DNA of 64,000 nucleotides from Taxawa tesnikishii (nom. ined.). Taxonomy: Eukaryota > Ascomycota > Dothideomycetes > Dothideales. Below, in pieces: positions 1-31,072 of the stretch. Where the stretch lies: positions 496,001 to 560,000 of the forward strand of contig JAPDRO010000005.1 of the NCBI GenBank assembly GCA_030247885.1, in the 5' to 3' direction. Every line of letters starts with the position of its first letter. Position 1 is the first letter of the stretch. The notes beneath the pieces were generated by a model that was not told where the DNA came from, searched no databases, and was given only the letters and a program-made list of their open reading frames with translations. The position numbers and the translations under genes were made by a program.

Positions 1-3000
1 GGGTGCCGACGAACTTGGCGGCAGCCGCAAACCAAGCGTCAGGGAAGAGCCTGACGACAATGGCCCAAGGCAGGCACAAAGCAGCTATGATGATACATAT
101 AGCCCACTGTGGACCATTGATCGGGACGATGCTGAATGCTTTGCCACCCACGAACGCGATGGCGACCTGTCCGCCGACCATGATGCAGTTGATCGCAATG
201 AAGAACCAGTTCCGGTGCAGGCCGGTGAAGATGTTGAAGCGGTTGTCGAGGCGGCGGTTGTTAAACTCGTTGAAAATCTGCATCCAGACGAAGGTGTTGA
301 AGATGATGGAGCGCCGCTCGGCGTCGCTGTAGCTTGGGTAGATGGAGGCGCCGCCGAAGTGCAGGATCAGGGTCACAGTCAGTTGGAAGATCGCTTGGCC
401 GATAATCATTTTCCACATGATGGTCGAGATGAGTGGTGCGCTGCGCTTGGGTGGCTGTCGGTCGAGGATCTGGTCGGTTGGAGGGTCCGTAGCGAGAGCG
501 AGTGCAGCAAGGGAGTCCCTGTAAGTTCGTGTCAGTACGCATGTAGGAGCTAGTGGTTTCTTCAGAGTAACAACTTACATGATCAAGTTGATCCAAAGGA
601 GCTGCACTGCGGTCAGCACAGACCGCATCTCAGGATCGGAAACCGAGGAGATGAACGTCAGCAGCACAGCGGTGATGTTGACAGTGATCTGGAACTGCAG
701 GAACTTGCGCACGGCATCGTTCACAGCGCGCCCCCACATTAGCGCTGTTAGGATAGATGCAAAGTTATCGTCCATTAGGATGATGGCAGACGCTTCCTTA
801 GCAACCTCGGTGCCAGCAATACCCATAGAGAAGCCGATGTCTGCTGCCTTGAGCGCAGGTCCGTCATTGGTGCCATCTCCCGTCACAGCGACGATCTCGC
901 CGAGTGCGCGAAGCCGAGTGACGAGGATGCGCTTATCTTCGGGCGAGGAGCGAGCGAGCACCTGCAGTTTCGGAAGAGTCTCATTCATCTGTGCATCAGT
1001 CAAGGTACGGAAGACCGGGCCTTCCATGACGATTCCATCAGTGTAGATGCCACAGTCTGTCGCTATTGCCCTAGCGGTGACGACGTTGTCGCCTGTGACC
1101 ATTCGTACAGAAACGCCAGCATGATGACACTTTGCAACAGCTTCGGGCACACCAGGCCGAATCGGATCTTGAATACCAACGAGACCGAGGAACGTCATGT
1201 CTTTGAGAAGCAGGTCGACATTGGCAGAAGATGGATCGTTCTCGCTGACTGCGTCATGTGGCGGCCACTGAGGGAAGTCTTTCGTGATCAGGGCGATGGT
1301 GCGTAGGGATTCCTTTGCGTATGAGTCAATGACACCTTCGAGACGTTCACGCTGAGATCCGTCCAAGGCGACGTCGCCAGAACGTGTCCAGACAGAGGTG
1401 CTGTAACCGAGAAGTATCTCCGAGGCCCCTTGACTTGGAAACGATAAGAGCCAGTAGAGAGCTTCTGAACAGCGCCCATGCATTTTCGGCCAGAGTCGAA
1501 TGGCATCAGTTGTACAACCTCTGCATTGGAGCGTTCTTCGGCAAGCGAACCCATGCCAAGCGAATGGCGCGCGAATCCCAGAAGTGCGGTTTCCGTCTTC
1601 GAGCCCACGAAACCGTGCTCGCCGTTGTCGCTTTCGAAAGCGGTCGAGTTGATGGCGATGGCTTCGATGATCATCCGCTTGTGCTCGGACGACAGATCTT
1701 GTGCGAAAGCTGCAGAGCGGCGCTCGTTGCCCGTTTGGCTCTTGTCGTCAAATGAGTCTTCGCCGAACGTGCCCTTGACAACCGTCATCTTGTTCTGGGT
1801 GAGAGTGCCCGTCTTATCGGAGCAAACAGTCGTGGCATTACCCATCGTCTCGCAGGATTTCAAAACGCGCACCAGGTTGTTGAGCTTGACCAATCTGGTA
1901 GTAGCAAATGCAAGAGCCAAGGTCACTGAAAGAGGGAGCCCCTCAGGAACAGCGACCACAATGACCGTGATGGCGACTATGAGGATATCCATGAACTGAG
2001 AGCCCTTCTCAGCGGGCGAGGCAGTGTTGCCGGAGAGGTTGGCGAGGAACCGGAACAGAAGAACGAAGAAGAGGAATCCGGCGGCCGTGGAACCCAGTTT
2101 GCCGATAGCGGTAGCAAGGCCGTCCAGTTTGACTTGAAGAGGAGTAGGTTCCGTCTCCTGGCGCATGGCCATCATGATTTTACCGAAACTGGAGTTGACG
2201 CCAACGGAGGTAACGAGATATGTGCCAACACCCTCAAGTACCTTGGCTCCGGAGATGATAAAGCAGTCCAGATCCTTGGGATTCGTGATCCCCTGCTCCA
2301 TGAGGCGCAAAACTTGCTCTCCACCAGTCTTCTTGAGCTGATCGGATTCACCTGTGGCGGAGGATTCGTCGCACTTGACATTGTGACCAGTGATGAAGAC
2401 ACCGTCCGCTGGGATAAGATCGCCCGGCTCCAGGTGAAGTATGTCGCCAACCAGCACATCATGGACGTTGATCTGGAAGGACTTTCCGGATCGAACGACC
2501 TTGACCTCACGGTCTTCCTTCTTCGCGTTCAGCTTCACAAAAGCCCTCTCCTTCTGCCAGTCGTTCAATGAGCCGACCAGTACGACGATGACAATGGCAA
2601 TGCAGATGGCGCAACCCTCGACCCAATCAACAGGCATGGGGGTACCGGGCTCGTGCTCAACACCGAAGGTTTCGTATAGTCCGAGGGCCAACGATATCGC
2701 GGCGGCAACACTGAGTAAGATCAGGATCTTGTCATTGTACGCTTGCCACATCAGTTTCCAAAGCGGCGTAGGCTTCTTCTCCGGAAGCGTATTTCGGTTG
2801 AAGATGCGGATGCGGTCGCTGAACGCATTGTCGGATGCTGACTGCTGAGGTGTGGTCGCTGTCCGGGTTCCGAGCGGCCGAGGTGCTGCTGTGTTACCGC
2901 CAACCTCGCGGAGTTTCCGATAATATCCACTGGCCTCATCAAAGCTCACCGAACCGTCTAACGTTGTCTCATCAATGCTAAGACCTGCATCGACATCTGT

Positions 3001-3276
3001 ACGCAGGCCTCTCTCTAGGCCAGGAAGGCCGCCTAGAGCAACGAATGCCGCTAGTGACTTAGGGTTTAGAAGCTTGTTTAGTTGGCCAGGAGAAAAGGCA
3101 AAAGAGTTATTCTGAACTTCAAAGTCTTGTTCCGAGCCTGGGTCGGGCTTGAGCGCATCCTCATGATGGTCGAATGTGAACACACTGGAGCCACTGCCGA
3201 AGGAGGATCCTCCGACCGGTGTTTTCGGTGGCGATAGGAGGGAGGGCGACGAAGGAGCCACCGTGCTGCCGCTCAT
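1..3276 (-). CDS. pmc1: P-type Ca2+-ATPase, PMCA/Pmc1 type (3' end outside window)
   Basis: ATP-driven calcium pump, in fungi usually in the vacuolar membrane. Exons seen: 3276-579 and 518-1, with a 60-nt GT-AG intron at 519-578; the C-terminus runs off the window. Visible signatures: the TM4 motif PEGLPL, the phosphorylation loop CSDKTGTLTQ (about residue 480), the nucleotide-binding KGASE region, the hinge GDGTNDGPAL, and the TM6 stretch QLLWINLIMD. The long Ser/Pro-rich N-terminus followed by LNKLLNPKS is typical of fungal Pmc1-type pumps. The frame breaks once, at the C run 1426-1429: one more base gives the conserved VKGASE junction. This is probably a sequence error. The start at 3276 is the first in-frame ATG; coding-like sequence continues a little upstream without an ATG, so a 5' exon is possible. 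Confidence 0.93.
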
Positions 3277-4190
3277 GCCTCGGTCTCTTGGAGTCCAGGA
3301 AGTAGCACTTAGGTTGCTTATTGACCGGTCTCTTGTGATTGCTTCTGAGATGGGGAGGTTTCCGCTGGAGTCTGGGCATTGTCCTGTGCCCGGAGTCAGC
3401 GATCACCATGCACTTTTAGTTGATGCGCCCCCAGCTTACCGGAATATCAAGTGTTATGCGAGGCAAGGCAGACTGGCGGTGTTCGCCAGAATGGTTTTGA
3501 GGAGCCATCGCAACTATACTCAACGCTCAACCGCGAAGAAAGGACGTTATTGATACACCTCTTGCCAGGTAGCGTTACATCGAAAAGGCAGAAGAGGTCT
3601 CTGTCCTGTGTTTTATGCCTCCCAAGGGGCTGTGCAACAATCGAACAGGTGGGCGATGCCCAGGCACCGAATGTTTGACAGACAAACCATGGCACACGTC
3701 AAGAGAGCAACGCCTAGTTCACACACGACGCCAAGTGCGCGTTGTAATGGCGAGATACTCAGCCACGAAACATAAGAGCACGTATCCCTCATTGACTAAA
3801 GTCAATAAGAAACGAGCGGCGGAGTGCGTGGCGAGCGGCAGCGGAGCGCCAAGCCCAAGTTTGCCAAGGCCAAGGCCAAGAAAGGTCATCAGCGGTGCTC
3901 AAGCCCGCGCCGCGCTCAACGAACGTATAGGCCAGACATGGACCATGGCAGGTCGTGCACATGACTTGCCCGACTTGAATGGACTCTTTTCGCCATCTTC
4001 GCATAGTTCTTTCGGTCGAAACCCGGATCCGCTCAACTAACCCCAGACCTCCGCATGGTGGAATCAGTTCTACCTCCCTTCTAAAACCTGTACGCGTTGC
4101 TGAGATCTCGCCGGCATCCATCTGTGGGCGCCTTGTCGGAACATTCGAGATGCGTAGCTAGGGGAAGGCGTGTGTGGCTTCTGGCATGCG
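3277..4190. other. Intergenic, nothing recognised
   Basis: Short open frames on both strands show no recognisable domain. The part near 3277 should hold the promoter of the Ca2+-ATPase. Confidence 0.5.
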
Positions 4191-4194
4191 TTGT

Positions 4195-4980
4195 GAAGCT
4201 ATTAGTGGATGGAGTTGCAACGAGATTTGTCCTCAGGATCAACTGTATCGTTAACCAGACCATCCCCGTCCGGCTCAAGGCTCAGTGGCAAGTACCGCTT
4301 GGTCTGCAGCTTCTGCCGCCCGCTGGTATGCAAAGGAAGACCGTTGGGATGAGGCTGGCAAGACGATGGGGTAGACCTGCAAGCTGCCAAGGAATCATCC
4401 ATTCGTCCAGCTAGAGCTCCAAGATATTCGGACTCAACTCGAGGTTGGCCGCATTCGGAGGGCGCGCAAGTATGACAATATTGTGCTCGTCGTATGTGGC
4501 AGAATGGTACCCGCAATCGAGTTGGCACCAGTCTTCTGCTCATGGCATACAAGGGGTTTACCGGCGTACGCGGTGTCTACAGATCTGTGAGATGTACGAA
4601 CGATGCTAGTGTCTGCTCAGGTTAACGCCATAGCCTGCTATTCGCCTCGGATTTTCGAGACATTCGGCATCACTAGCACCTCGGTCAAGCTGTTCGCGAC
4701 AGGCTTCTATGGTGTTACCAAGACGACCGGCACGATCGCTTTCAGTGTCTGGCTCATCGAAAAGGTGGGCCGTCGCAGGAGGCTGATCCGATCTGGGGGC
4801 CTTCGTAGGCAGTATCCCGACGTGGTATATTGGCGACTGTGTCTCCTGGAACGGCTCAGCTGCGACCGCTGCGCGTGGCGATGCTGAGCGGGCTGAATGG
4901 GACTATCACGCCATGTTTTGCGTATACCTGTATGAACTGATTTACTGCGCCACCTGGCAGGTAAGTAAGCCCATCTTACG
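4195..4980 (+). pseudogene. Relic of an MFS sugar/quinate-type transporter
   Basis: Pieces in different frames line up, in order, with the middle of fungal quinate/sugar permeases. They are VNQTI and AQWQVPLGLQLLP (about 4250-4315), KEDRWDEA then LPRNHPFVQLELQDIRTQLE (about 4340-4440), NAIACYSPRIFETFGITST and VKLFATGFYG (4627-4720), WLIEKVGRRR (about 4750-4785), and a C-terminal piece with VYLYELIYCATWQ (about 4920-4965). The frames do not connect, and no start or C-terminal helices were found. This is host transporter debris rather than a working gene. The frame changes are too many to be explained by the single-base run errors seen elsewhere in the window. Confidence 0.75.
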
Positions 4981-12258: not shown

Positions 12259-13655
12259 CTAATTGTGCACCTTTGCTTGCAGACCCGGAATGATCTCCAG
12301 GTCCTTCTGATCATAGAAGTACTTTCCATCCTCGCTGATCTTGGGCTGCTTCGTCTTGCGCTGCTGCTGCGTTTGGCGCTTTCGCACCCACTCCTCCATC
12401 GTGAGATGTTGGCCGAGTTCCGTGAACTGGTTGCTCTTCAGCCCGAGTCGATTCAGAACGGGACTGTTCTTGATTGGGTCTAGGATCACGTGGTTGTTGG
12501 GCCTGCGGGAGGTGTCAGACGCCGCGTCAAAGTCAGAAGCATAGCGGAAACATGTACTCACCGAGCAAAGTACAAAACGCCCAATCGGTCGATATGCGCC
12601 TGATCTTCGGGCGGCGCGCGCACCCGGTGGATGCTAGACTTGATGTACCCGCCAGTCAAGGCGGTCAAGGCATCGCAGGTGTTGATGGTGATTGTAGCAT
12701 CTTGCGGCTTGACCCACTTCCAATCACCATTGTTGTTCAGGATCTGGAGTGCCGCCACCGGTTGCCGGAATAGCAGTGTCACACTCCCGATGTCAGTGTG
12801 GCCAGGAGTGTAGAGCTCGCCGACCTTCTTGTTTTCCTCGGCGGAGCGCGCTTTGTAATGCATATAGCGCAGGTGGTCCTCACCGCGGTCATCGTAGACG
12901 TGGTCGCGCACAAATTGATCCTCGTCGGGCAGTTCGAGCAGAATGGCGAAGAGGCGGAGGAGCTTGACTACGACTTCTCGATGACATTTCTGGATGCGGA
13001 ATGTCAGTATTGTAATCCATTAACGGCTGGTGACGGGTTCGTGCTTACTCTGCTAAACTCTTCAATCTCTTGGATATTTTCCTGCAGTACAGGCGGGTGC
13101 TGTCGTTGATGGAAGCCGTCGAACTTCGGGATGTTGTACACCTGAATGTTATCGGTAACTCCATCTGCGAGTCTGTCGCATGCGTCAGCATAGCGTCTCT
13201 CATTCCTCATTCAACCTTTCCGTACTTGCGGAGCCCAGCAGGTCTGTAACCATTGTACTCTCCGCTCTCAAGATCCGCTAGATTGTGGTGTTTGAGCTTC
13301 CCTTCGAGCGGCAAGTCGTAGAATTCCCTTCCTAGAACGAACTGCCTATCCACCTCTTCTTGGCTGATGTTGAAGTTCTTAACGTAGAAAAAGCCTCTCA
13401 ATATATGAGCATTACCTGGTAGATCGCATTAACGGTGAAGCCACCCACTGACGTAGCGGACGGCATGCTCGAGCTTCTTGACAAGCTCTTCCTTGCCACC
13501 CGATCGTTCGAACAACCCAAGATCGAGGGTCACGAGTTCGGCCCAGTCGACTATGTTTAAGTGTCAGTCTGGCAGTACGACGTGGTATCTCTGCACTCAC
13601 GGTCGGCTTTGGTCACTGGGACCTGCTCGTATGGGGAGACGGTTCTGCCGGGCAT
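12259..13655 (-). CDS. 2-oxoglutarate/Fe(II) oxygenase, isopenicillin-N-synthase-like fold
   Basis: Six exons: 13655-13601, 13550-13449, 13394-13226, 13172-13049, 12989-12562 and 12502-12259. They sum to exactly 374 codons (373 residues) with no frame break. The DIOX_N part carries FFYVKNFNI and GYRPAGLRKLA. The C-terminal 2OG-Fe(II) part has the HTDIGS iron motif (His about 213, Asp about 215) and the distal His in SSIHRVRAPP (about 277), whose Arg would bind the 2OG carboxylate. The donor of intron 2 (GTGGGT) gives Val-Ser where relatives usually have Val-Gly, so that junction is the least certain. No nonribosomal peptide synthetase is nearby, so a role in penicillin-like synthesis is not supported. 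Substrate unknown. Confidence 0.9.
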
Positions 13656-15048
13656 TTTATTGTCAAAGAAAGGATTGTACAAATATTTGACTTAGCTGGA
13701 GTCTCGCTCACGAGAAGGGGACCGAGTCTGCATATATGTTGACACCCACCCCTCATGCCCCACTGTCGCCGTTCTGTAATCGCAGCTTATCTCGGCGATT
13801 TGGGATGCTGCATTTCACGCTGGTCCTCGAGAAGCACGCAATGCGTGGATCTTGTCGCGACATCTGCACTCACATTACCAAACCTAGCAGCGTAGCGTAC
13901 AAAGGCCTCGTGGTATGCTTGTGGCCACTGCAGTGCATTGGAACATTTGTTCCGATATCCGAGACGGCCTTGATGCACGCAGATGAAGCCCTTGGGTGGA
14001 TGCGGTTCACTCAAACCGGCTTGTCGACCGTACCGTGATGTGGAAACTTACAAGGGGAGATAATAGACAAAGCGGGAAGGTTAGGTTTGTCAGGGCGACG
14101 GACGTGTGTCGCATAAGATAATCACATGCATCTCTTTACATTCAGCGCAGGCCACGTAGGACGTGATGTTCGAAACAAATCACCGTGGAGCGGAGGCTCG
14201 GCTTCATTCCCGCTGCAAACGGCCAAACTTAGCAGCCGGCGCGTGTTTGCTAGAAAGAAATGAGAAAACCAGCCGGGAGACGAACGCAATGGGCGGAATG
14301 CTTTGGTTTTGTTGCCGACGTTTTCGTTGGCATAGTCGACGATGTCCGACGCGCCTATATCGCGCACGAAGTCGGCGTTCCTAGTTGCACACGTAAATGT
14401 AACCTGCCACCCTCTCGTCTGGGCGAGATCAACTTTCTTCGCCTATCCACTGCCAGGATCTCCGATAGCGTTCCGTTGCTGCCTGGAGCCATGGCGATAC
14501 CAAAGACATTGTCATCCTGCTTGGATGTTTGCTATACAGCGGAGCCTGCTGCGATGACGGCACCAGCAAAACCGCAGTCTGGGATCTTGGGACAAGACAA
14601 GCCCGTCACATGCCAAATAGGAACGTTCACCAGCTAGATATCCACGGCATTGAGAGCGACGGCATTGAGCACAACAAGGAGGGAGGAGGGAGGTGGGGGT
14701 GGGAGCTGTGGTCGGAAGGGTCGTTGTTGGAAGGGTGAGGTTGTGAGGACAACCTGGAGTAGTATACGTCCAGGCCTCGACTTCAGTCATGTTGGACGCC
14801 TTCGTCTGGCTGTTGAAGCTATGTCGTGTCGCGCGACCCTGCCACGGCGCTGCTGCTTGAGACGGAGGAACAAGGGAGAAAACTCGAGCGGAGATAGGGA
14901 GCGGAGATTCATCTGTTGACGTCATTGTATATAATTGTATCCGAACAATTGTAGCATTTCGACGAACATTTATTTGAATCTAGAGCAGCCAACTCTCCTT
15001 CAGCAGTGGAATCCCCTCGAAACCATCGACATCTTCTCTAGTTACACC
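13656..15048. other. Intergenic, nothing recognised
   Basis: Upstream regions of the oxygenase (minus) and the SDR (plus). Several 60-140-codon frames overlap each other on both strands without recognisable motifs. Confidence 0.5.
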
Positions 15049-15815
15049 ATGGCACGCATCTTCATCACCGGCAGCTCCGACGGAATCGGCCTTGTCGCCG
15101 CGCGCTCGCTCATTGCTCAAGGCCATCAGGTCACATTACACGCTCGGAATCAGCAAAGGGCCAATGAAGCCCAGAAGGCTGCTCCAGGAGCAGAAGGCGT
15201 CTTGGTATCAGACATCAGTACCGTAGCAGGCATGAAGAACCTTGCCTCTGAAGCCAACAAGACCGGCGCGTTTGACGCCGTCATCCACAACGCAGGCGTG
15301 GGATACAGCCAACCCTTCCGGAAGACAGAAGACGGTATTGCGACAGTCTTTGCAGTAAACAGCCTCGCTCCATACGTGCTTACTGCGCTCATGCATCCCC
15401 GAAGCGCCTCATCTACACAAGCTCTGGCCTCCACTCCGGTGGCGACGGCAGCTTGAACGATGTGACTTGGACCTCCGGCCGGCCATGGAATGGATTTCAA
15501 GCGTACAGCGACTCCAAGTTACACGATGTAATCCTGGCTCACGCAGTTGCAAGGCGGTGGAAGGATGTGGAAAGCAACGCCGTCGATCCGGGGTGGGTGG
15601 CGACCAAGATGGGAGGCATGTCAGCGCCGGGCACCGTCGATGCAGGCGCGGACACGCTGTCTTACTTGGCGGAGGGAAAGGAGTCAGCCAGTGGAAAGCT
15701 GTTCAAAAACAGGCGGCCTGTTCGATCACATGATGCCGCAGGCAAGGTCGACGTTCAGGAGAAGTTTTTGCAGATTTGCGAAAAGTTGTCCGGAGTTTCG
15801 TTCCCGGAGCATTAA
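15049..15815 (+). CDS. Short-chain dehydrogenase/reductase (SDR)
   Basis: Single-exon NAD(P)-dependent oxidoreductase. The N-terminus has the Rossmann signature ITGSSDGIG, then NAG in the HNAGVG strand, the catalytic Ser region (YTSSG) and the YSDSK active site (Tyr about residue 153). One frame break lies at the C run 15397-15400: one more C joins LTALMHP to KRLIYTSSG and gives 255 residues. Without it translation stops before the catalytic Tyr. Probably a sequence error. Length and motif order are those of classical SDRs. Substrate is not predictable from the sequence. Confidence 0.87.
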
Positions 15816-17183: not shown

Positions 17184-18030
17184 GGTGGTAGTGCTTGGGA
17201 CGAGATGCTTTGGTGATAGTTATGAGACTTTGGAGTAAAGTAGAGAAATATTGAATGCGATTGCACAGAGAAGATGATGAGAGATCAAGTAGCAGGGGTT
17301 CTTCACCTCCCATATATATTGATGCCTATACCTACCTGTGCTACCGTGTAGTTTACGTATGATGCGTCGGATACCAGAGAAGCAGGTTTTGGTGAAGGGG
17401 CTGGCCTCGGATTGTAGATCAAACTGAAGATGACGTATAGATCAACAGCCAATACACACTTCGCTTACCAGAGCAAGAACATCGTCTTCTCTCTCAGCTA
17501 CGTTTGTCGAGGCTGTATAGTTTCGGAGAGAGAGACAGCTAGTCACTTGTGTTCATAGGTTATAGTTGTTGCAGCGAACTAAGGCACACGTAGATCGACC
17601 TGCGTCCAGGCGAGCTTTCGTGTGTAGGCGAAGTTGCTAGGCACCGGAACAACGTTTCCCGCAACCGCTACCTTGAGTGCTACTCGACACCAACACCTAC
17701 TGGCCTGTAGCGCTACACCTCTTTCTCTCCAACCCACCGCGAACATCGTGCAGCCATTCCTTGTCAGGCAGTCTGTCCATGTGAGCATTCAAAGAGATGC
17801 TGCAAATACGGCAACCTCGGTCATCTCAGTCATGTCTTTGCCGAGCGTCTAGCCATCCGCAAGGCTGAGGATTATACTACAACGCTACCTGCATCGTACG
17901 GGACGCCTAAATAAAGTATCGACGGCGGCCCTGTGCCGCATCAAGCTGAGGAGTTCCTCTTAAACAGCCTTCCCTCTAACATTTCAAAACTGCGCCCCAT
18001 GCATTTTCCTGGTATGTTCCTAATCGTGCA
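17184..18030. other. Intergenic, nothing recognised
   Basis: Promoter side of the small protein (minus) and of the Zn2Cys6 relic (plus). A TATA-like element (ATATATA) lies at about 17312-17318, upstream of the small protein. No coding signal. Confidence 0.5.
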
Positions 18031-20103
18031 ATGGCACAAAATAGCTTTGAACAGACTCAGAGTATTGAGGCTCCAATGGCATTCGCATCGAGTGCAGATA
18101 TTCCTTTGCCTTTACAAACGGGCGAAGACCGACTGTACACTTTGGCAGCTGAGCTTCCAACGGCTCATCTATCGATCGCCAGAAATGGAAAACCTGCGCG
18201 CACGACTGGGACAGGGTCCTCATCAGCTGTCTTGCAGAAGGTTGTTGCCTCATCTCGACCGTCCAGTGTCTTGAAGCAGCAAACCCACGAAGCGGTTATC
18301 TGGACTGGATGCCTCTCATGCTTGTAAACAAAACGCGATTTTAGGCTTCTAGGAACGGCACTGACAGATCTGCAGAGCCAAGGGTGTCCGTTGTAATCGG
18401 ACCAGGTCTAACACAGATTGTGCCCGCTTTTCGAGTCAGGAATGGGCATCGAACAAGTCAGACACCGAGACACACTTCCCAGACGATGATCAGAGTGAGG
18501 GGACAGCCCTGCATAAGACCGCTGCAGCCACTACACGGACACCGAGGTACCTTGCTCAACTCACGTCGGACAATCCACGGATGCAGCATTCCATTCGTTT
18601 CTTCGTCTCTCACACGGCACCTCAGTTAAGCGGTGCGTTTGGCAGCGAATTCTGGCAACGAGATGTCATCCATGCCGCTGTATGGGATCTATCTGTACGG
18701 CATTGTCTGGTTGCGCTGGGGTCTTTGCATGAACACAACCTTCAACGCCAGTCTCGGGAGTGCACACCGACTCAACTCCAGTAGTCGCTCTTTTCCACCT
18801 CAACAAATCCATCCGAGCGTTGGTTGACGGTATGAGAAAGCAGCATGCCCAAGTCTTCAGGGCTCTTCTGTTGGTAATCATTCCGTCTTCATCTCCGTAA
18901 AAAACGCGTCAAGAGACAGGGCTGACATCCTTATTGTGCACACTGTACAGTACATTTGAGGGACTCTCAGGAGACAGCCGCGATTTGACAAAACACGTCG
19001 TACAGGGACGCAAATTGCTGGCACAGTATGCTCGGGCCGGATCTCCCAGTGAAGAGGAGTTGCAGTCCATCGTTCCTCCACAGAACCTCATTGCAAGCGC
19101 ATCGTTCATCGGATCCACGACGCCAGTGACAGCTGAGGAAAGCAGCACAATGGGTGAATATATGGATCTCCCACCCTTTCCTGATAACTTGTTCTCTCTC
19201 CGTGAGGCCGAATTTTTCTTGAGCAGGCCCGAGCGAAGGTCTACACTCTTGCGTTGTATCAGCATTCCTTGCAATTCTCGGCCGATATACGTACATCACT
19301 GCTACGAACCAGACGTCGATTCTCGCAGTGGCTCTCCGCGTGGGAACATTCCTTCACAGCCCTTCTCTCTGCCATCATACCTACGCTGTCCGACCTAGAA
19401 GTGTGCCAGGCCATGGTTCTCAAAGTAAATCATCTACTTTTCACCATTATCGTGGATGTCAACATCGGAATGCCCGAAGCTTATGATCCCTCTTCTTACA
19501 AACTCTTCATACCAGAATTCGAAGCTATCGTCGCCTTGTCCAAAAGAGTACTGGCAAAGTACAAGACGCCGCCTCTTCCTTCCGTGCAGGTACTAGACGG
19601 ACCGTTCTTCACCTATGGGATGTGGCTGACCTTTCCACTCTTCTACACACGGAGTTGGGCCCCAGACGAGACGCTGAGAGCGGAAGCGAACAGGTTGTTC
19701 GAGCACCATCTCTGGTCTGCTGGATCAGTTTTCATCTTTTCGGATCAGCTAATTGAGTGCATAGGTTGTTCACGCACCATGCACAGTCAAAACGGGCAGC
19801 CAACAGCTCGATTTCTGACGCTATACCATTACCCAGCTAACTGATACTAGGTTGTTCTCGAGCCATCCAAGGTCATACAACCAAAGCTGGGGAGTGTCGC
19901 AGATCGAGATGCGGTCATTAGACTCACTGCTGGACAACACTGTCGAGCAGCCAGCGGCTTCAGTTCATCTCCCAGTCGTGCTCGAACGACAGTACTTCAA
20001 ATATACAGCACTTTGTCGTACGGTACGTAAGCGTACGCGGTCAAGGGCAAAACGTGGGTTGTTGACGACCTGGAAAGCATTCTTCGTCCGATCGATTACA
20101 TGA
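18031..20103 (+). pseudogene. Degenerate Zn2Cys6 fungal transcription factor
   Basis: Exon 18031-18323 joins 18376 across a 52-nt GT-AG intron to form CLSCLAKGVRC, a C-x2-C-x6-C zinc-cluster start. The following DCARFSSQEWASN has Phe and apparently Ser where the last two ligand Cys should be. The fungal_trans-type middle region follows: FFVSHTAPQLSGAFGSEFW, VRHCLVALGSLHE, LFHLNKSIRAL, then LYSTFEGLSGD, and a C-terminal region ending near 19840. The frame changes at about 18757 (a G run), near the possible intron at 18874-18919, and at the T run of about 19211-19215. Two of these fit the single-base run errors seen throughout the window, but the lost zinc ligands do not. I call it degenerate, possibly a former pathway regulator of the block to the right. 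Confidence 0.7.
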
Positions 20104-20521
20104 CGTTACAAACGCTGTCCACTCCACGACGGAAGAGGCTGCATGTTGACTTTTGATTCCTGGCTGTTACTTCAATGGCTGACTGTCTGCAACCAATAGT
20201 GCGGCAATCCTTCTGCATGCTACTGGCAGTATACTCGCGGCGTCCGTTATACAATGTCCTCATTGGGCTTAACAATGTTGAGAAATAGCCTTTGCATGGA
20301 TCCGGCCGTACAGACGTCAGTTCGTTCAGACTGAAATCCTCAAAAAACTTCCCGCATGAGTTGTTGCAGACAGCTGTGTTTCATACCCTTGAACCAGTAG
20401 AGAAAACGTGTTAACGGCCAGCAAAAAGCATACAAAAAGGCCAATCGTTCAAGGAGACAAGCGCTTGCCGATAACGAACACCCAACTATCTAAGTCGGCT
20501 ACAACCATCTCAAGCTCCCTT
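20104..20521. other. Intergenic, nothing recognised
   Basis: No coding signal was recognised between the regulator relic and the lactonohydrolase relic. Confidence 0.5.
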
Positions 20522-21930
20522 TCACAAGAAAATATGATTCGGATCTGGTCCCTGCAAATCAAACTCGACCCTTGACATCCCACCAATGCCGACCAACCAC
20601 AAGGTTTTCAAGTCCTCTCCAGTCCACGCAATATTTTCCACCGCGTGCGTGGTCTGAATCCTTGCCACTGGTGTTCCGTCTTGCGCAATGATGTCCACGC
20701 CCGTCGAGAGCCCGGATCCGACCACGAGCATCCCGTTTCTTGCGACCTTCAACCCATCCGGTATACCTTCCAAGCTCTGGAAGATAGTGCGCTTACTGGT
20801 CAGATACGGCGCCTGGTTGTTGGGTGGACGCACAACGTCAAAGGCATAGATGTTGCGTTTGTTGGTGCCTACGAAGCCGATCTTGATGGGATAGGCATAG
20901 AAGTCGTTTTTCCCCACGGGAAGCGTCGGGGGTCACGACTTCCAGCCCGCTGTCGGCGATGTAGAGGGTGCGGCCGTCACGCGAGAATGCGATAGATACC
21001 GTTTGGCAGGGAGAGTGTGTCTTCGACGACGGAGATGGCGCCTGTTGAGGGCCGGAAGCGGTAGGTTGCGAGCTGGATCTGGCTTGGCGCTGGTGAGAGG
21101 CCGAGGGCGTAGCCGTACTCTGTAGAGACACATCAACACGTTAATTATAACGTAGGCAAATGGAGAGCCCGTACCGCTGTCTGTGAACCATACATCTCCG
21201 AAAGCATCAACGGTCAGATCGTTCAGACCGCCGAAGGAGAAACCATAGTAATTGTTGACAAGCCATTCAGCTTTCAGTGTGGCAGGGTCGACCCGGACGA
21301 CGCCTGACCGCTGCTTCTGACCGTCCGGCAGGGTCTGGATGTTGCCTTGCACGGCCCAGTATATCATCCCGTCGTGCAGGATATCGCCAGTGGGCTGGTA
21401 GACGGGTGGGTCGGTCACGAAAGTCTCGAGTGTCGGGGGATTCATGTTCAAATCGATGACCAGGTTGCTGAGGTTCCCAGGTGGACCATCCTGTGTGACG
21501 AAGAGCTTGTTCAGATGAGGGACGTAAATCGGCGCTTCATAGACGACGCTTGGGACGTCAAACACCTTGTGCTGCAGCTTCGGTGCTGGACCAAGTATCT
21601 CTAAACCGCGTTGACGGTTGAAGACGACAAAGTCGGCCTTTACAACTAGATTCTAGGAGGCATCGTCCGGTACCACGGTGCCTGAGTATCCCACGGTTGG
21701 ATCGGGATCCCGAAAGAAAGATGGCGGAAGCAATGAGCCGTAGCGTTCAATGCAGACTATGTTAGCTGTTGAGGGGCCGCAGACGGATGCAACCGAGTTT
21801 GAGGAAGAATTGGGTGGAGAAGTGCGAGGAGAAGAGTTATATTAAGCAGGCTGGGACGAAACAGAGCCAATGACCACGCTGCCGGGAAGCACAGAAAGAT
21901 ACTGTTTGCAGGACATGTTGATCGTTGACA
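20522..21930 (-). pseudogene. Broken SMP-30/gluconolactonase-type lactonohydrolase
   Basis: Beta-propeller lactone hydrolase of the fungal secreted kind. Recognisable parts, reading leftwards: LLPPSFFRDP (about 21710), EAPIYVPHLNKLFVTQDGPP, GDILHDGMIYW, GGLNDLTVDAFGDVWFTDS, an intron at about 21123-21173, YGYALGLSPAPSQIQLATY, FSRDGRTLYIADSG, and KRNIYAFDVV to the stop at 20522. Lesions: a TAG codon near 21657 between VVPDDAS and NLVVKADFVVF; a tandem TATC duplication at about 20995-21005, which shifts the frame inside LPNGIAFS; and one base too many in the G run 20928-20932. The short duplication and the stop are not explained by run-length error, so I call it a pseudogene. A possible start lies near 21917. 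Confidence 0.8.
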
Positions 21931-22964
21931 TGGACACAAGCTGGATGGCACAGGTCGTTCGATACGAATACTGCTCTTTTATCTGGAACCGGTCACGTTC
22001 ATATGCCTACCCTTGTATGTGCTTCGCAGTTCCCTTCTCGCTAGGAAAGTAGAGAACCATACTTAGAACAATGCTGAGCCACTCAAAACTTAGTCACAGC
22101 ACTGTCGGTAGAGGTTGATGGCTGCGTCGAAGATGCATACCATGACTGTCTCGCTCCAAGTTTGGAGCTGATCTTTGTTGCGGCTGCCGTACTACGAGCG
22201 CGTCTCGGCGCGGTGACTACCTGCCTGAACGACCTGAAAGCAAGGTAATGCTTCAGAGTGCTCCAACCGTCGTACCAAATGTGACTGATGCCTGCACTGC
22301 TGCGCCGCATACCTTTTCGTAGCCCGTCGGATGTGGTACCAACAATTGCGAGTATGACCTGAGATCGATGAGTGCATATCAGCCCTTTGTCTCAACGTCG
22401 CTGAGCCGTGAATGTTGTATACACTCGTGTATCCTGGGTCCGCAGCCATCGCGGGCAGGCCTACCTAGCGTGTGGTGTCGGGAAGCTGAAGACTAGACTG
22501 ACCTCGAGCGAAGGTGCGTGAGCAAGGTTGCCGGCCACAACCATGAATCACCAACGGAACGAGAGCGTGACATGGTTAGCTGCAGCAAACAAGGCTTGCA
22601 TTTCGTGAGGAGCTCAGCCTAGTTCGTGCGAGGGTGCTTGACCCGGTCGTGTGCGTGGTTCCGTGTTCTGCTATGCTTCGAGCAAATGCGCAAGCCACAT
22701 GTTAGGTGCCTCGCAGAAACCATACTTTGGAGCCTTCTCTAGATAAGAAGAAATAATGTTGTACGCGAGTAGTAGCAGCGGGAATATACAGTGTTTTCTG
22801 CAAGAGTAATGAATGGCAAGTCAAGTTTCAAAATCAGATGAACATGCGGCCGTCCCAAAGCGCTCTAGTGCCGTCCCAAAGCATTCTAGTGCCGTCCTCT
22901 GTGCTCTCCCGTTCTCCCGCTCCTCCCACCCCAGGTCTCCTCCAACAACGCGACTTTCTCAAGA
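21931..22964. other. Intergenic with a 22-bp direct repeat
   Basis: No coding signal was recognised. At 22849-22896 a unit starting GCCGTCCCAAAGC and ending TCTAGT occurs twice with two differences, followed by a third partial copy. Confidence 0.6.
22849..22896. repeat. 22-bp direct repeat, two copies plus a partial third
   Basis: Unit GCCGTCCCAAAGC.. TCTAGT repeated in tandem with two substitutions, downstream (3') of the MFS transporter. Confidence 0.8.
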
Positions 22965-24402
22965 CTACCAGTCGAAGTTGTCTTGACTCTCGAAGCTAAA
23001 CCGTCCAAGCCGCGGTGTTGTGGGACGATTCCTGAGTCCCTCCTGCACCCCGTCCTCATGCAATTGGATCAACCTTGCCGCCACCAGCACTGTCGTGCCG
23101 AGTAGCACCGTGCTACCACCAAAAATCTGCGCGTAGAGAAAGCCACCGTCTTTGAGCTGAATCAATGCTCACGATTGTAAACACCATACCGATGCGTACT
23201 CCCATTTTGCTCATGTCCTGCGTCAAGCTGGCCAGCGTCGAGGGAAAAAGTGTTTGCACTGCATTCGCGCACAAACCATACAGCAGGACCCAAACAATGT
23301 AGCTGCCGAGGTTGTTGACTCCAATCCAGCCGATTAGCATTATGCCGACTCCTGTCATTGGGGGTATCAGTGTGTTGAATGGGCCGAAATAACGGTCCGC
23401 AAGAAGAGCGGGTATCAAGCGGCCTGGCACGCCAGCTGTGTTGAAGATCATGACCAGAGTAAGTGAAGTCGACGACGACAGATGGATGACCTCTTTGCCA
23501 AAAACGGTGATCTAGCATCATCATGAGCATGGTTACTAGCTGGCCGCTCTGCGGAGACACTCACATAGTAGTATGCAAAGTAGACTCCAAGCAGGGACAG
23601 GAAAATCCCGATAGAGAAAAGCGCATATGGTCGCTCCCGGAATGCGTTCCACTCCATCAATGGCCCTTTGGCTCTCGATGCACGCCTGGGCCGCGCCAGG
23701 ACAAGGATAACTGCGGAATTGAAGAGCATGACGAATCCCATGACCCTTGTGGTCCATGGAAACCCAACGACTGGCGTCAGCTGTTGTGCGATCTGTCGCA
23801 AAAGTTAGCGTTCCCGCACACACCTCTCGCCCGGATTCTGAACATACCACTGGAAAGACAATGCCGCCAATCGGAGCGCCACATGCTGCTATACCGAGAG
23901 CAACGGCTCTGTTCTTGGAGAAATACGTCGAAACAAGAGTGACTGCTGGGGTAAACAGTAGTCCATTCCCGAGGCCTTGAACAACTCCTTGCGACAAAAG
24001 CAATTGCCAGTACTTCTGGCAAACTGATGTTGTAAAAACGCCCAGCAACTGCAAGCCGCATCCTGACCAGATCAGAGAGCGAAAGTATCCAGCATCCATG
24101 GCCCGTCCTGAGAGAGTTCTGATGAAGAAGAGCAGAAACATTTGAAAGGATCCGACCCAGGAGACATCAGATGCCGAACGCTGCAAGGTCGTCACCCAGT
24201 GCGACTCGAACAACGCGAACGAGGAGAGATACCCAAACCCATTGACAACAAGAAGATGACTGACAAGCACTCGTGACCAAGCTGTCCAGTGATTTGAAGC
24301 TGTATCGCTTTCCGCTGGTATAGGGTTTTCCCGCATAACAATGCCGGCGCTGCTGCTTTTTCTCACCGCTCCACGGGTTACACGTGAATCGCTTGGAGAC
24401 AT
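22965..24402 (-). pseudogene. MFS transporter (monocarboxylate-transporter type) with an internal 35-nt deletion
   Basis: Exons 24402-23848, 23792-23565 and 23511-22965. It resembles fungal MCT/riboflavin-type MFS proteins: FALFESHWVTTLQRS, SWVGSFQMFLLF, GVVQGLGNGLLFTPAV, STYFSKNRAVALGIAACGAPIGG, then VPGRLIPALLADR and GVRIGMVFTIVS. Directly after that the frame jumps to ALIQLKDGGFLYAQIFGG near 23163. The loop that should carry the conserved TGPPIAG-type motif is missing. The remaining codons only add up if about 35 nt were lost. The gene lies head to head with the isocyanide synthase, so it may have exported that product. An alternative start is 24489. Confidence 0.8.
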
Positions 24403-25327
24403 GGTCGGTGAAGGTCTGTGTAATGTGTGAGATTCGACCGCAACTTTTGCTAACCTCAAGCCGGGCTGCTGGTCTTTTTGGGACTTCATTCAACCACATT
24501 CAGCATTGCATATTCTTACACCCGTCTTCCTGACAGCACTATCGGTATCGCCTTTGAAGTGGCTCAGCGACTGCGACCAACCAATCCCAAAAATAATATA
24601 TTCGTACAGCTTACGGCCAAAGCTCAGCAAGCTCTGAGACATCTTCCGTTGGCAAGGGAGGGACATATTGCCGTTGACTTGAGCGTTCTAAGCCTAACGT
24701 TTGCGGCGCTGTCGTTTGGCCTGCTATCCTTAGGATGGCGTGCCTTCAGCGTCTGCCTGATCAAGCAGCATTTTCGTGAGCCTTGGAGGATTGTCAGTGC
24801 GCGCCATCCGCCTCATGTGAAACCCATCAACAAAAACCTTCTCTTTCAGACCAGACCACCTCGTTCTTAGCGAAACGCTCAGCCTGGCTGCTTTTTGGTC
24901 TGAGCTTGGTGGCACCAGCCCAAGACACCCATACGATCGGGCGCAGACGGTCGTAGTACAAGACCTGCGGCTGAACAAGGGTTTGCACGGCGTTGAACTC
25001 ACCTGGTCTGTTCACCGCTCACCTCATGCTCATGGTGGAACACCCACGTAAGGACACATTCTACTGGAACACAACGCTCGGAAACGGCCTGTCACTCATT
25101 GCACCTGGACCTCCTACCGCATTTTCAGGATTGGTAACATTAGAACTCGCTTTGTTCACCTCAGCTCTACAATCGGTCTTGCCGGTGAAGGATTCAGCAA
25201 GTACGACGCTACAATCACAGCAGTCGAAGTGCTGAGCGATGTGATTGCACAGCCGACCGCTTCGAAAAGGCATCGAGCAATGTCGAAGACGATCGGAGAT
25301 GGTATATTAAGGTGCTGCCATCACTAG
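24403..25327. other. Head-to-head intergenic region with an unassigned open frame
   Basis: Region between the MFS transporter and the isocyanide synthase. A plus-strand frame from about 25139 to 25324 reads coding-like (it contains STIGLAGEGFSKYDATITAV) but has no recognised family and no clean splice to either neighbour. It could be a missed 5' exon of the synthase or a fragment of another gene. Confidence 0.4.
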
Positions 25328-26944
25328 GGACTTGAGTTCAATTCATCCTCGCAGTACCATCCGCTTACTATTCCATCGCCATCTGCCTTCGGTGAAAAAT
25401 ATCTCCTCGGTCGACATTACGATGCTTCCACATCAAACCTCCTTGCCTCGGCACACGCAGCAGTGGCACTAAAGTCTACTGATATAGACGCTCGGGTATC
25501 TTTGCTTGAGCGCCTGGTCTCCGATCTTATCCAGTGGCAGCAAGCAGCTGTGTCCTCAATAACTCATCCAATGCACCGGGCCCCAATAACTGAGTCGATG
25601 GCAACCGTTAGCAACCTCCTCCTGCAGGTCCCTAGTGACCATACTGAGGATGTCTCTGCAACCATATCGCGCGCGCCAACTCCGGGATTCTCCGACAGCG
25701 AGAGTGGTGATGAAGGCAGTGTTGTGAGCACGGCGGCAACTAGCGTCGTCTCACTTCCCGACAAAGAGGAGCCCTTGCCTAGTCGCTCTTCCAGCCAAAT
25801 TGCTGAAAGCATTCTCGATGTCCTTCAAATGTTCGGACAACATTTGAGCGCTGACGGCATCGATTCGTGGACTGGAAGGGCAATGTTCTTTGGCTCGGTA
25901 CACAAACGCGTCGAGGCCGGCCAGCCGATCAAGATGGTTCTCCCTTCGTTCCCATGGAAAAGCATCAACCGCGTGCACAAGGGCATAGGGAGCCTTCCAG
26001 ATCTCGCGGAAGAACTGGCCCTGTCGAGACTCGACCACCTCTGTAGAGAGATCGAGAAGGTCTACGCAGGTGGTGCTGAGGTCACGATAGCCACGGATGG
26101 CTTGATCTTTGATGACGTTGTCGGAATCACTGATGATGACACTTGGTCCTACGGCGAGGCTCTAATGGACCTGTGTGCGGAGAAGTGTTTTAGCCACATT
26201 CGACTCGTCCGGGCTATGGAGCTTCTGGGCTACACTAGTGGTCAGCAGCTCACCAAAGAGAAGTACTTCGCGCTTGCACAAAAGTGTCGGGAGGCTCTTC
26301 TGACCAAGGAATTCTGCCGTACGGAAGAATATGTCCGGGCGATGATGAAGGAAGACGCCGATACCATGTCCACCTACTTGGGTTTCATCCGCTTCTTAGA
26401 GACAGATTTAAAATACAGCCCAGTTGCCAAAGATGCCGCCAGCGGACACAAGTACCGCAAAATTGTCAAGAAGGTCGCCATCGGCATGGTGATCCGAGCA
26501 GAGTCCTTCACCAAGCTCCTGCAATCTAAGTGCGCAGGCTACATTCGCCTCTCCATCCACCCTTCAGGCGGCGCAGTCAAGCTTTCCGTCCCACTGATCC
26601 CGCAAGCTGACGGCGCGTTCCCCGCTCACCATGGCACTGTACCATCGCCGTCGATGTCAATGGAGCCCGCCGGACTGTGCACGTACAGGATGTCCGCAAA
26701 ATTCACACGCTTGTGCACTGCTACGGACGTCCCTACTATTATCGTGAGAAGTCTCAACTCTGGGATTGGGAGGAGGACGGTGTGGCTTTTGAGCCCCAGT
26801 ACCCAAGCGGTATGCTGGTCCGCGTGAAAAGGAGACAGAGGCCGAGAAGAGGGTTTTGACAAAGGAACAGAAGGAGAGCATAGAAGAGCTGGCGCGCCTG
26901 CAAGGGCCGATCACTCTGGCTGGCTTCGCGAACGCAGCGGACGT
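25328..26944 (+). CDS. Isocyanide synthase (Dit1/PvcA family), truncated before its TauD domain
   Basis: Dit1/PvcA enzymes turn the amino group of an amino acid into an isocyanide, using ribulose 5-phosphate as carbon donor. The fungal forms of the dit group carry a C-terminal TauD-type dioxygenase. Seen here: an N-terminal Ser-rich linker, FPWKSINRVHKGIGSLPD, the adjoining AEELALSRLDHLCREIE, VTIATDGLIFDDVVGI, IRLSIHPSGGAVKLSVPLIP, PWHCTIAVDVNG, VHVQDVRKIH and FEPQYPSGMLVR, then a linker and GPITLAGFANAAD, the first strand of the TauD-like part, after which similarity ends. Frame breaks at the C run 26620-26623 and the A run 26826-26829 each need one base and look like sequence errors. The N-terminus is unresolved: the frame is open from 25328, with an acceptor-like CAG ending at 25354, but has no ATG before 25571. 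Confidence 0.85.
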
Positions 26945-29119
26945 AAGGGGGTTATCGTTGTGTAGAATGTCTGATGCGATCTCTTGGGATTTGATGGCGC
27001 TCGTAGAAAAGCAGCAATGTATTTCATTCCATAAACCTAGTCATATACAAGTAAGCTATGATCGTTGGATTGTTTCCAGAAAACGGATCCGCGCAGTTCA
27101 CGTTCAGACGAGGCAGCCTCGTTACGGGCCACGGGCTATTAGAGCAAGATTTGCCTTCCTCCGTGGCAGACTCACACAACTACATCGTCGAAATTCATGA
27201 GCAACCAGAGCATAACACAATCTACTTCTTAGTCTATCTGCAGATGCCATGAAGCTATCGGCAGGAGGAGCCGCAATCAGCGGATGAGGCGGCCAACGAA
27301 CGATCACTAGACCTGCTTGACCGACAAGAAGCTATACAGCAAGAGCAACCGGAACGCTGTCGTGAGCAGCCATCAATACCACACCGATGGCCGTACCTTT
27401 CATGGAGATCCGGGCTTGCGCCGCTACGGTTTCCTTCAGCGAACGCTAATGATACGAGAGAGCGTGAATGCAAGCCATGTTTTCAACAATCGAAGACAAC
27501 GAAAATGCGCCATGACTGCAGCAAAACCCCTGACTTACACGTCAAGTTCGCCCTTGTTTGGAACGTCCACTCTAATAATAACCTAAGGCAGACACGCTGA
27601 GGGGTTGTAGTAACACAGAAAAGCAGCCTTCCTTTCAGCCTCGGATCATACCAACAGTTGTACGACATAGCATAAGAAAGCTGGTCCCTAGAGCTAACTC
27701 TCAGCTTCTTATAAAGGGTGGCAGTACAAGGCAGTGCTTAAGCCATGGCTCAGCACACGAGATGTCTGGAAGCAGCCCCGGCTGATGAGCTTACGGAGCG
27801 CGCGATACACTCAGGCAGGTTAATGTAGAGATGGTAAAGTAGAAAAGGTCAAGATATGCTGGCCTGAGGGTGTGTTGTCATCAAACAGCAGTCTCGATAT
27901 GTTCTCGAGCGAAGGGCCAGGTCTTGTTGCGGCACAGATCCATTTTCTCTTCGCTTTCTTCGCTTCTTCGTTCTCGATCTACCAACAACATTGCTTGAGC
28001 TTACGTAATCCCAGTGAGTGCCCTCCAACCTCCACGCTTGCACAACGTTACCCTACACCATCATGTATACCACTCGAGGCATCAGACGCCATCCTTCACG
28101 GATTGTCCGACTTAGTGGATTACTGCGGCTCCTTCTGCTCTGCTGGTTGGAGACGGCTGGGTGGCGATATTCAGGTGGCTGGGCGATCCACTACGATTAA
28201 GTGAAGTCTTTTCTTCACTCGATCATTGGATTGTCAAGTCTTCATGAGGTATATCTCGAGGGAATCAAAACACTCCTATCAGAATGCTTGCACTCGAAAC
28301 AGTAGGTCCGTCACGCTGTTGTGGAACACAGTTCCTCCGCTCTTTCCATTCTACGGATTTCCGCATCATCACCCTCTTGTGCTTCACTACAATCCCCATG
28401 TCGACATGCCTCTCTTCACCTCAAGCCAAGGCCCAATCGTAGTGCACTAGCCCGTCCCACAACCAGCCTCTTTTCCGCGCTAAACCAGCCATACAATGTC
28501 TAGAGGCAGGGCATCGACGACAACGCACGGACGCACGCTAGAGCAGACTGAAGCTGAAGCCGAGCTATACGGATGCTGAAGTGAAGCTCACACTGAAGCT
28601 CAGCTGGGAAAACAGAAAAGCAATTCACGAAACGGTACAATAGGACTTCGACAATGGCTAACGTCCTAAATGTCTGGAAAAAGGATAAAACCACATCCTC
28701 GAGACCATGACATGGTCCTCGACTTCCTTCCTGTTTTCCTGATAGAAAAACATCTTCGACTGTTCTGTACAACCTGTTTTGCATCTTCGCCTTGATTTCT
28801 GGGTTTTTCACCCCTCCTCACTTCAAGCATCCATATATTGGAGATCTAGCTGGACTAGTGCCCAGGTCTACGACTGGTCAGTGCTCGATGCCTTACTGAG
28901 AAAAAGGCTCCTTTGCCCTGTTCCTATCTTCTCCCCTTTCCATCCACGATTCTCTTTGCAATTCTGACATTCTACAGACAATTTTCCCTTCTGTTACATC
29001 CAAAACACCGCAGGTCGGTTTATCATACGAAATAGCCGAGAAGCAGCCACACCTACAACGCCGGTCGTTGTACAAGCAACAAAACGTGAACACAAGACTA
29101 TTGAAGATCTCGACCGAAA
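26945..29119. other. 2.2-kb stretch after the isocyanide synthase, no gene recognised
   Basis: The place where the rest of a TauD domain would be expected contains no recognisable TauD sequence in any frame I read. A donor-like GTAAGG at 26943 follows the last homologous codon. Short open frames to 29119 show no domains. The 28.9-29.1 kb part is the presumptive promoter of the next gene. Confidence 0.5.
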
Positions 29120-31072
29120 ATGCCCGTCCGCGGACCCTTGAGCATCTTTTACTCCCGAGAGGGTGGCAGAGTCCCAGGTAAGGGCTTTTCGAGCCCTGAC
29201 TGGTATACAACGCTGACATCTATCAAGAAACCATTCCAGAAGCCGCCATGGTTTGTGATCGCCCTATCTTTCATATGGCCCTGCGCTCTGCGTCCCTCCA
29301 GCGATCTGGAATCTTTCCCTTCCTCAAGCTCCCCCAGAAATCCGTAACATGATCTATGATCTGCTGCTGGACTTCAACGGCATCCACACGTTCTTCGACC
29401 GATACATCAAAGAGCTCGAGCAGCGCCTGGCAAAGCGTTCGAGGAAAGATAGATCTGATGTGCATTTCTGCAAGCATCGTATCGTATCTCCTCCCATCCT
29501 TCGTGTCAACAAGCAGATCTTCCTCGAAGCGAGCTTCATTCTCTACAACAAGCCATTAGTCTTCTCGCACAGCCTGATCAAGCAGCGGGCGACCAATCTT
29601 GTGAGCGAAGAGCTCATCCAGAACATCACCCATCTCCGCATCAATGACTCTCGCTGCGACATTGTCGATGAGCGCTTCAAATGGGTCTTCCACGGATACG
29701 TTTCCCTCTTCGAGCAGCTTGCGGATGAGCTCGAGAAAGGCCATTGTCTGAAGCAGTTCGAGGTTGTCATCAAGAACGAGGAGTTCGAATGGCACCAGAA
29801 GGTCTGCTGTAACGCTCGCATGCCTAACGACAACTGCGGCATGATTGACTTCGTCGTTCGCGTGGGCGATGCCCTCAAGCGCATCCGCGGTGTCAAGAAT
29901 GTTCACCTGGAGGGAGTTCTGCCGGAGCCAATGCTTGAAGAGATCAAGCATGTCATGCAGAGTGGCTCTTCGCCTCTCCTGCGTCTGCCTGTAAGAATCC
30001 AGTGGAAGATCTTTGATCACGTCCTAGACCGGACTGACGCAAGCGAACAGCTCAACAAGCGTCTTCTCACCATGCAAAACAGCGGCTCTTCTCCACAAGC
30101 AACGGAAAACGTCATGAAAGACACGGCGAGAATGACATACATGGCAGAGGAGCTTCATGTCCTCTCGCAACCCCCATCTGGTGTGGCGTGGCCAGTCGGT
30201 CTGCCTCGCCGTCCGGTGACGCACAAGTATACGGTGCAGGAGCTGCTCAGTCTTCAGAATAGCGGTTACTCCCCTGCTCCTTCCTCCATCTCGTCTCATG
30301 CTGTCCCAACCCCACCTGGCTTCTCGTCTCTCGGCTCCACTGACTCAAACTCTACACTTCTGTCCTACTTCAATACCGACGGGTACACCGACAACAGTGG
30401 CTCTCCTTCACAAACGATGGAAGACGTTACGTACTCGGCAGAGGCACCTATCACCCCCAGGCAATATGGGGACCACGAATCTGCGCCCGCTGTCGCTCAG
30501 GCCAGCTCCTACCCTGTTGACCCGATCTTCATGACGGATTCAGCCAAGATTTGGCGAGAGGTTGCGCTTCGTGTGAACAAGCGCAGGGAAAAGGCGGCCG
30601 CTATTTTTGCTGCTCAGCTTGAGCAAAGAGAAAAGCTGCTGCGAATGTTGGAGGAACTCAGACTAGCGCGCCGCCAAACATCCCCTCCACCCTAAAGGCT
30701 AGCCATGAACTTGATTCTTCGTCCCTTGTCCTCGCCAACTCGGATCCCGCTCCTCTAACCTACCTCAACCCCGACGAAGACATCTACAGCAGCACTTCGC
30801 AGCAGCTGCCACAAACAGTATATTCAGAAGAGGAGATTCTTGCCATCAGACAATGCGCGACTGCTTCCTACCATAGCGAATTGACCCCGACCGGCTCTGC
30901 GTCCTTCATCCCCGCTGACTCGTGCTCCACTCTTCCACCCTATCCTACCACTCACGGATACATTTCCAGCAGTGCCGCCTACGAGCTATCACAGACGACC
31001 CCTATGGCAACGTTGCTGAACCAGAAGACCTTCGATCTGGCGAGCAACGCTCTCAAGCGTGTCAATGGCTAG
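29120..31072 (+). CDS. PPEIR-motif (F-box-like/2EXR-type) fungal protein
   Basis: Exon 29120-29177, a 62-nt intron, then 29240-31072; about 630 residues after correction. The front carries the motif LPPEIRNMIYDLLL, common in fungal F-box-like and 2EXR proteins, followed by PPILRVNKQIFLEASFILY. The second half is Ser/Pro/Tyr-rich and probably disordered, with a charged helix (KRREKAAAIFAAQLEQREK). Two frame breaks, at C runs 29331-29335 and 30682-30685, are each cured by one more C: the first restores FLKLPPEIR, the second joins ARRQTSP to STLKASHELDSS. Total length then is a whole number of codons. Function unknown; relatives are often lineage-specific. Confidence 0.75.

Follow-up and report, generated by a model that had tools for sequence, protein, structure and literature searches.

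A fungal isocyanide synthase locus with broken reading frames, possibly in a recent stage of decay

Introduction

Enzymes of the isocyanide synthase family build an isocyanide from two sources, the amino nitrogen of an amino acid and a carbon of ribulose-5-phosphate. A stretch of 64,000 nucleotides, hereafter the window (C30:496001-560000, from a genome of 29.37 Mb in 34 contigs), carries an apparent synthase of this family next to genes for a transporter, a lactonohydrolase and a regulator. Does this arrangement represent a working natural-product cluster, or a cluster that is being lost? Here we show that the gene families and their arrangement are those of a fungal isocyanide locus, and that the reading frames of all four genes are broken in this assembly, more often than the assembly background would predict. 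We then weigh decay against errors in the assembly.

Results

Gene content and layout

The central gene of the locus is an open frame at 25328-26824 on the plus strand. It matches the Pfam family PF05141 (DIT1_PvcA) with an E-value of 1.2e-75 and 255 bits, which exceeds the gathering score for family membership (cut-off 26.4), and the match spans profile positions 1-243 of 273, at residues 191-431. The PvcA structure in the PDB (3e59) also matches (E 1.4e-24), as does the NCBIfam PvcA model, at an E-value of 6.8e-32 that lies below the cut-off of that equivalog. The assignment to the Dit1/PvcA synthases made in an earlier sequence-only reading is thus borne out, and in a profile search of the 29.37-Mb genome this gene was the sole PF05141 match scored. 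The upstream part of the open frame contains no ATG, and the first in-frame ATG, at about 25571, is the likely start.

We searched for additional domains of the kind that are fused to other synthases. Pfam detected no TauD-type dioxygenase on the open frame, on the piece at 26793-27197 or in the six frames of 27060-29260, and no AMP-binding or carrier domain on the open frame or in the scanned flank frames. Because these flank scans yield no family, the synthase reads as a monodomain protein, not one of the xan or crm type.

Head to head with the synthase lies a monocarboxylate-type gene of the major facilitator superfamily (MFS) at 22968-24489 on the minus strand, as the sequence-only reading had also proposed. 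It matches MFS_1 (E 1.6e-11) and, below the cut-off of that model, the monocarboxylate transporter model TIGR00892 (E 1.3e-14); a paralog with 44% identity is found at C31:147217. Two normal-looking introns can be read in this gene, at 23847-23793 and 23564-23512. The upstream region shared by the two genes (24490-25570) contains no Pfam family in a six-frame scan. Beyond the MFS gene lie a lactonohydrolase gene and a regulator gene. The former, of the SMP-30/gluconolactonase type (20525-21841, minus strand), matches PF08450 over the cut-off at approximately 20.5-21.8 kb (E 1.2e-7), so that the earlier call of a lactonohydrolase holds at the level of the family. It has a paralog at C16:493689, which is 57% identical across query positions 5-100 and reads through in one frame.

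The regulator gene (17980-19841, plus strand) consists of a finger region, in which an intron of 52 nt can be read at 18324-18375, and a body of the Fungal_trans_2 type. One of its pieces matches Fungal_trans_2 below the cut-off (E 0.037). Searches within the same genome returned 9 other matches for one piece and 12 for another, and three of these relatives, on C32, C31 and C10, match Fungal_trans_2 with E-values from 4e-8 to 6e-6. The gene had been described as a Zn2Cys6 regulator. Its paralogs support a transcription-factor-like protein, but not a six-cysteine cluster: only four of the six expected cysteines are visible, and Pfam Zn_clus reaches at best an E-value of 0.23, in one of the paralogs with a finger region, and is absent from the matches of the other. 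We considered loss of the zinc finger as a lesion and rejected it, since both paralogs in which the region falls within an open frame (C32:402 kb and C31:669 kb) likewise have four cysteines. For the same reason the four-cysteine finger appears to be characteristic of the family rather than a sign of damage.

The genes of the window have short GT-AG introns and encode fungal-type domains, from which we presume a fungal source. To the left of the regulator, at a distance of 2-6 kb, are a 2-oxoglutarate dioxygenase-type gene (DIOX_N and 2OG-FeII_Oxy, 12259-13655, minus strand) and a short-chain dehydrogenase gene (14935-15812, plus strand); these are possible tailoring genes, and nothing connects them to the synthase. 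An isolated piece of a sugar transporter (4591-4884, plus strand; PF00083 profile 270-321) may be the relic of a gene or a single exon. A DNA-level search of the genome revealed no other copy of the 9-kb stretch, and contig scans with a reach of close relatives returned no close bacterial, archaeal or viral relative.

Broken reading frames in all four genes as assembled

All four genes contain frame changes without a fitting intron, a property that the sequence-only reading had missed. In the synthase, the PF05141 profile stops at nt 26620 and restarts at nt 26623 in another frame, so that in this assembly the frame is lost just before the conserved PWH motif. The continuation (26611-26856, plus strand) contains this motif and matches profile positions 242-268, below the cut-off (E 0.01). 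In all four bacterial proteins that we aligned, PWH directly follows the preceding block, and because the two blocks are contiguous in these relatives, there is no fitting place for an intron at the break. A second frame change near 26.83 kb is less certain. It is suggested by coding score alone, and would lead into a possible C-terminal tail in a third frame (26832-26966, plus strand), which lacks homolog support and scores 0.057 per codon, between the 95% and 99% values of noncoding sequence (-0.006 and 0.064).

The MFS gene differs from its C31 paralog, whose open frame was checked around the gap site, by about 35 missing nucleotides at approximately 23170, where the paralog has 11 residues. 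The lost residues belong to a motif that the paralog retains, and the accompanying frame change leaves the 3′ part of the MFS coding sequence out of frame. As assembled, the MFS gene is predicted to be disabled. The same prediction applies to the lactonohydrolase gene as assembled. An in-frame stop at 21653-21655 lies within a stretch that aligns without gaps to the C16 paralog, and there are 4 surplus nucleotides near 20991 relative to that paralog. Another frame change is probable near 20.9 kb, and the gene may include one more in-frame stop, at 21842-21844. Finally, the regulator has one frame change near 18.76 kb and another at a run of T near 19.21 kb, while its paralogs are open in one frame.

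We scanned 16 junctions across the locus for introns. The MFS gene and the regulator finger contain good introns, and candidate GT-AG pairs occur at nearly all junctions. We rejected introns as an explanation for the frame changes, since in our reading no candidate can bridge the break in the synthase, the gap in the MFS gene or the surplus in the lactonohydrolase gene without loss of conserved residues. The lactonohydrolase stop could be skipped by a 42-nt intron, but this candidate was likewise rejected, as its donor is poor and the paralog reads as coding at the aligned position.

The coding signal of the broken genes is retained. Of the three frames on its strand, the expected one has the highest score in each of the 14 pieces examined from the four genes; all 14 had been preselected for being open in that frame, and they did not include the short middle frame of the lactonohydrolase. 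Therefore, any decay would have to be recent. Scores are near zero in four of the pieces (the first of the MFS gene, the first of the lactonohydrolase gene and two of the regulator), and equally so in two of the three regulator relatives and in the first exon of the MFS paralog.

Frame changes in the assembly background

The interpretation of these breaks depends on how often the assembly itself alters reading frames. Conserved genes elsewhere in the same assembly also change frame without introns. An example is an HSP70-like gene (C3:494622-494625), and within the window a cation P-type ATPase gene (578-3402, minus strand) has a probable frame change near 1.43 kb, at a run of G and with no intron, which is likely an assembly error. 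We surveyed four gene families for pairs of Pfam matches that are contiguous in the profile but lie in different frames, with shifts of at most 14 nt. Cytochromes P450 gave 9 frame changes in 38 pairs (106 matches, 61.7 kb, from the best 92 of 127 genome candidates), although some of these P450s are possibly true pseudogenes. HSP70 gave 1 in 9 pairs (11.8 kb; 16 of 20 rows, after four that were weak or overlapping had been dropped), while all rows were kept for the other three families. Aldehyde dehydrogenases (ALDH) gave none in 3 pairs (14 matches, 12.3 kb, the best 11 of 48 candidates), and sugar transporters yielded no pairs (9 matches, 11.3 kb, the best 9 of 323 candidates). The total is 10 frame changes in 97.0 kb. 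A separate count by gene finder, over 42 models in 20 control stretches (79.1 kb), gave at least 6 frame changes; this approach is insensitive, since frame changes can be hidden inside false introns, and the gene finder indeed spanned the P-type ATPase frame change with an intron. The HSP70-like and P450 cases suggest that residual indels occur throughout the assembly.

Over the 14 locus pieces, which total 5.07 kb, the background rate predicts 0.52 shifts. The four homology-supported shifts that fall under the same criterion (one in the synthase, two in the regulator and one in the lactonohydrolase gene) have a probability of 0.0021. The MFS gap is larger than 14 nt and is thus outside this like-for-like count; adding it gives five shifts (P 2.1e-4), and adding also the two less certain changes gives seven (P 1.3e-6). 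The frame changes are thus in excess over background, in a contrast that is inflated to the extent that the locus was read more closely than the background genes, and local consensus quality may also be worse here.

The kind of change differs among the lesions. Eight of the 10 background shifts have the phase expected from one lost base, and the synthase shift and both regulator shifts share it; because this phase is common in the background, these three shifts resemble background. The phase of the 4-nt surplus in the lactonohydrolase gene occurs in the other 2 of 10. A shortfall like the MFS gap was seen in none of the 50 background pairs of the four-family survey. In-frame stops were outside that survey, which covered frame shifts.

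Decay or a working locus

The sequence-only reading had taken the gene set for a small natural-product locus. With regard to family and content, this description agrees with known fungal isocyanide loci, for which the gene content is ordinary, but a working cluster of four genes is not supported by the locus as assembled. A working cluster should have intact transporter or tailoring neighbours; instead, the MFS and lactonohydrolase genes appear disabled, and the synthase and regulator are broken in frame.

These breaks could all be assembly errors in a poorly polished stretch, in which case a small isocyanide cluster would still be working. The background frame changes, most of which share the phase of the synthase and regulator shifts, are consistent with this explanation, and the frame changes in these two genes may well be errors of this kind. 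The coding signal kept in every piece and the strong synthase core also fit. However, neither the loss of about 35 nt from the MFS gene nor the in-frame stop in the lactonohydrolase gene is a small shift, and the background pairs contain nothing comparable to the gap. These two lesions are harder to explain by assembly error, and we consider it rather doubtful that the whole cluster is intact.

Alternatively, the synthase alone could be functional, its shifts being assembly errors, apart from neighbours that have decayed, much as dit1 can occur away from dit2. A single frame change in the synthase is unremarkable against background (P 0.12), the core is long, and its pieces have a positive coding score of 0.10 per codon. 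Fragmented dit loci are also on record, in a survey of fungal isocyanide genes (Nickles et al. 2023, PMC10153163). Two frame changes would be less likely by chance (P 0.0077), although the second is uncertain, and the coding score does not reach the lower quartile of the controls (0.117), which were gene models picked for high scores. On balance we regard a lone functional synthase as unlikely.

The reading that we favour is that of a fungal isocyanide synthase locus, monodomain and lacking dit2, in a recent stage of decay, for which we see about an even chance from the lesions read in the assembly. The case for real decay rests on the MFS gap and the lactonohydrolase in-frame stop, which we infer to be true mutations. 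In such a history, an intact synthase would have formed an isocyanide from the nitrogen of an amino acid and a carbon of ribulose-5-phosphate. The divergent MFS carrier would have transported this product, and control of the genes may have lain with the nearby regulator. The carrier would then have lost both motif residues and frame, the lactonohydrolase would have been stopped and frame-shifted, and the synthase would have been broken before PWH, so that the locus would presumably no longer yield its product.

If decay is true, we see here a fungus in the course of losing isocyanide production, and the locus would help in judging the dit1 loci that the above survey calls fragmented. More generally, a domain match alone is insufficient to establish a working cluster, and the present assembly should be polished before any of its genes is declared dead.

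Comparison with known isocyanide systems

Bacterial isonitrile synthases, i.e., PvcA and its relatives, share motifs with the synthase, including RLSIHP and PWH. A tblastn search of plasmids returned 13 records; the 12 of these that were listed cover 64-79% of the synthase query, with an identity of 28-33%. Unlike these, the gene here is fungal, and the bacterial loci examined have different neighbours, except that in one Burkholderia locus an MFS gene also adjoins the synthase.

Among fungal systems, the synthases of the xan and crm clusters belong to the same family. XanB is described as a fusion of synthase and dioxygenase (Lim et al. 2018, PMC5974471), whereas no fused dioxygenase was found here. 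CrmA is a fusion of a synthase with an NRPS-like protein, and no NRPS-like domain occurs on or beside the present synthase.

The survey mentioned above (PMC10153163) reports an MFS gene in approximately 60% of fungal isocyanide loci, a P450 in 34.6% and a zinc-finger regulator in 21.3%. It describes 200 gene cluster families and names three characterised fungal clusters: dit, xan and crm. The earlier statement that no product is described for the present gene set, if correct, is therefore unsurprising. In the literature library searched we also found no paper that mentions both an isocyanide synthase and a lactonohydrolase, nor, judging by titles and the openings of abstracts, any on a pseudogenised dit or isocyanide synthase locus of this kind. 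The locus could instead represent an undescribed cluster family, with a P450-free monodomain synthase, a monocarboxylate-type carrier, an SMP-30 lactonohydrolase and a regulator with an incomplete finger, but this seems to us very unlikely, and a known type of locus that is decaying is more likely than a new working cluster. Should such a family exist and be kept intact in relatives, the genome studied here would be a natural loss mutant.

In the same survey (PMC10153163), the dit superfamily comprises the isocyanide synthase dit1 and the P450 dit2, and dit loci are defined by a dit2 gene that adjoins the synthase; in an additional 11.2% of the ascomycetes surveyed, dit1 is found apart from dit2. 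The present locus differs in that no dit2 was found beside the synthase. Pfam detected no P450 or dit2 relic in 15 flank frames (which did not include the plus strand of 21985-22961), and within the window a single P450 was matched, at 40.1-41.8 kb and at a distance of 13 kb from the synthase. What the locus does have in common with the dit superfamily, which includes an MFS-bearing clan found mainly in Dothideomycetes (PMC10153163), is a monodomain DIT1_PvcA synthase with an MFS gene adjoining it.
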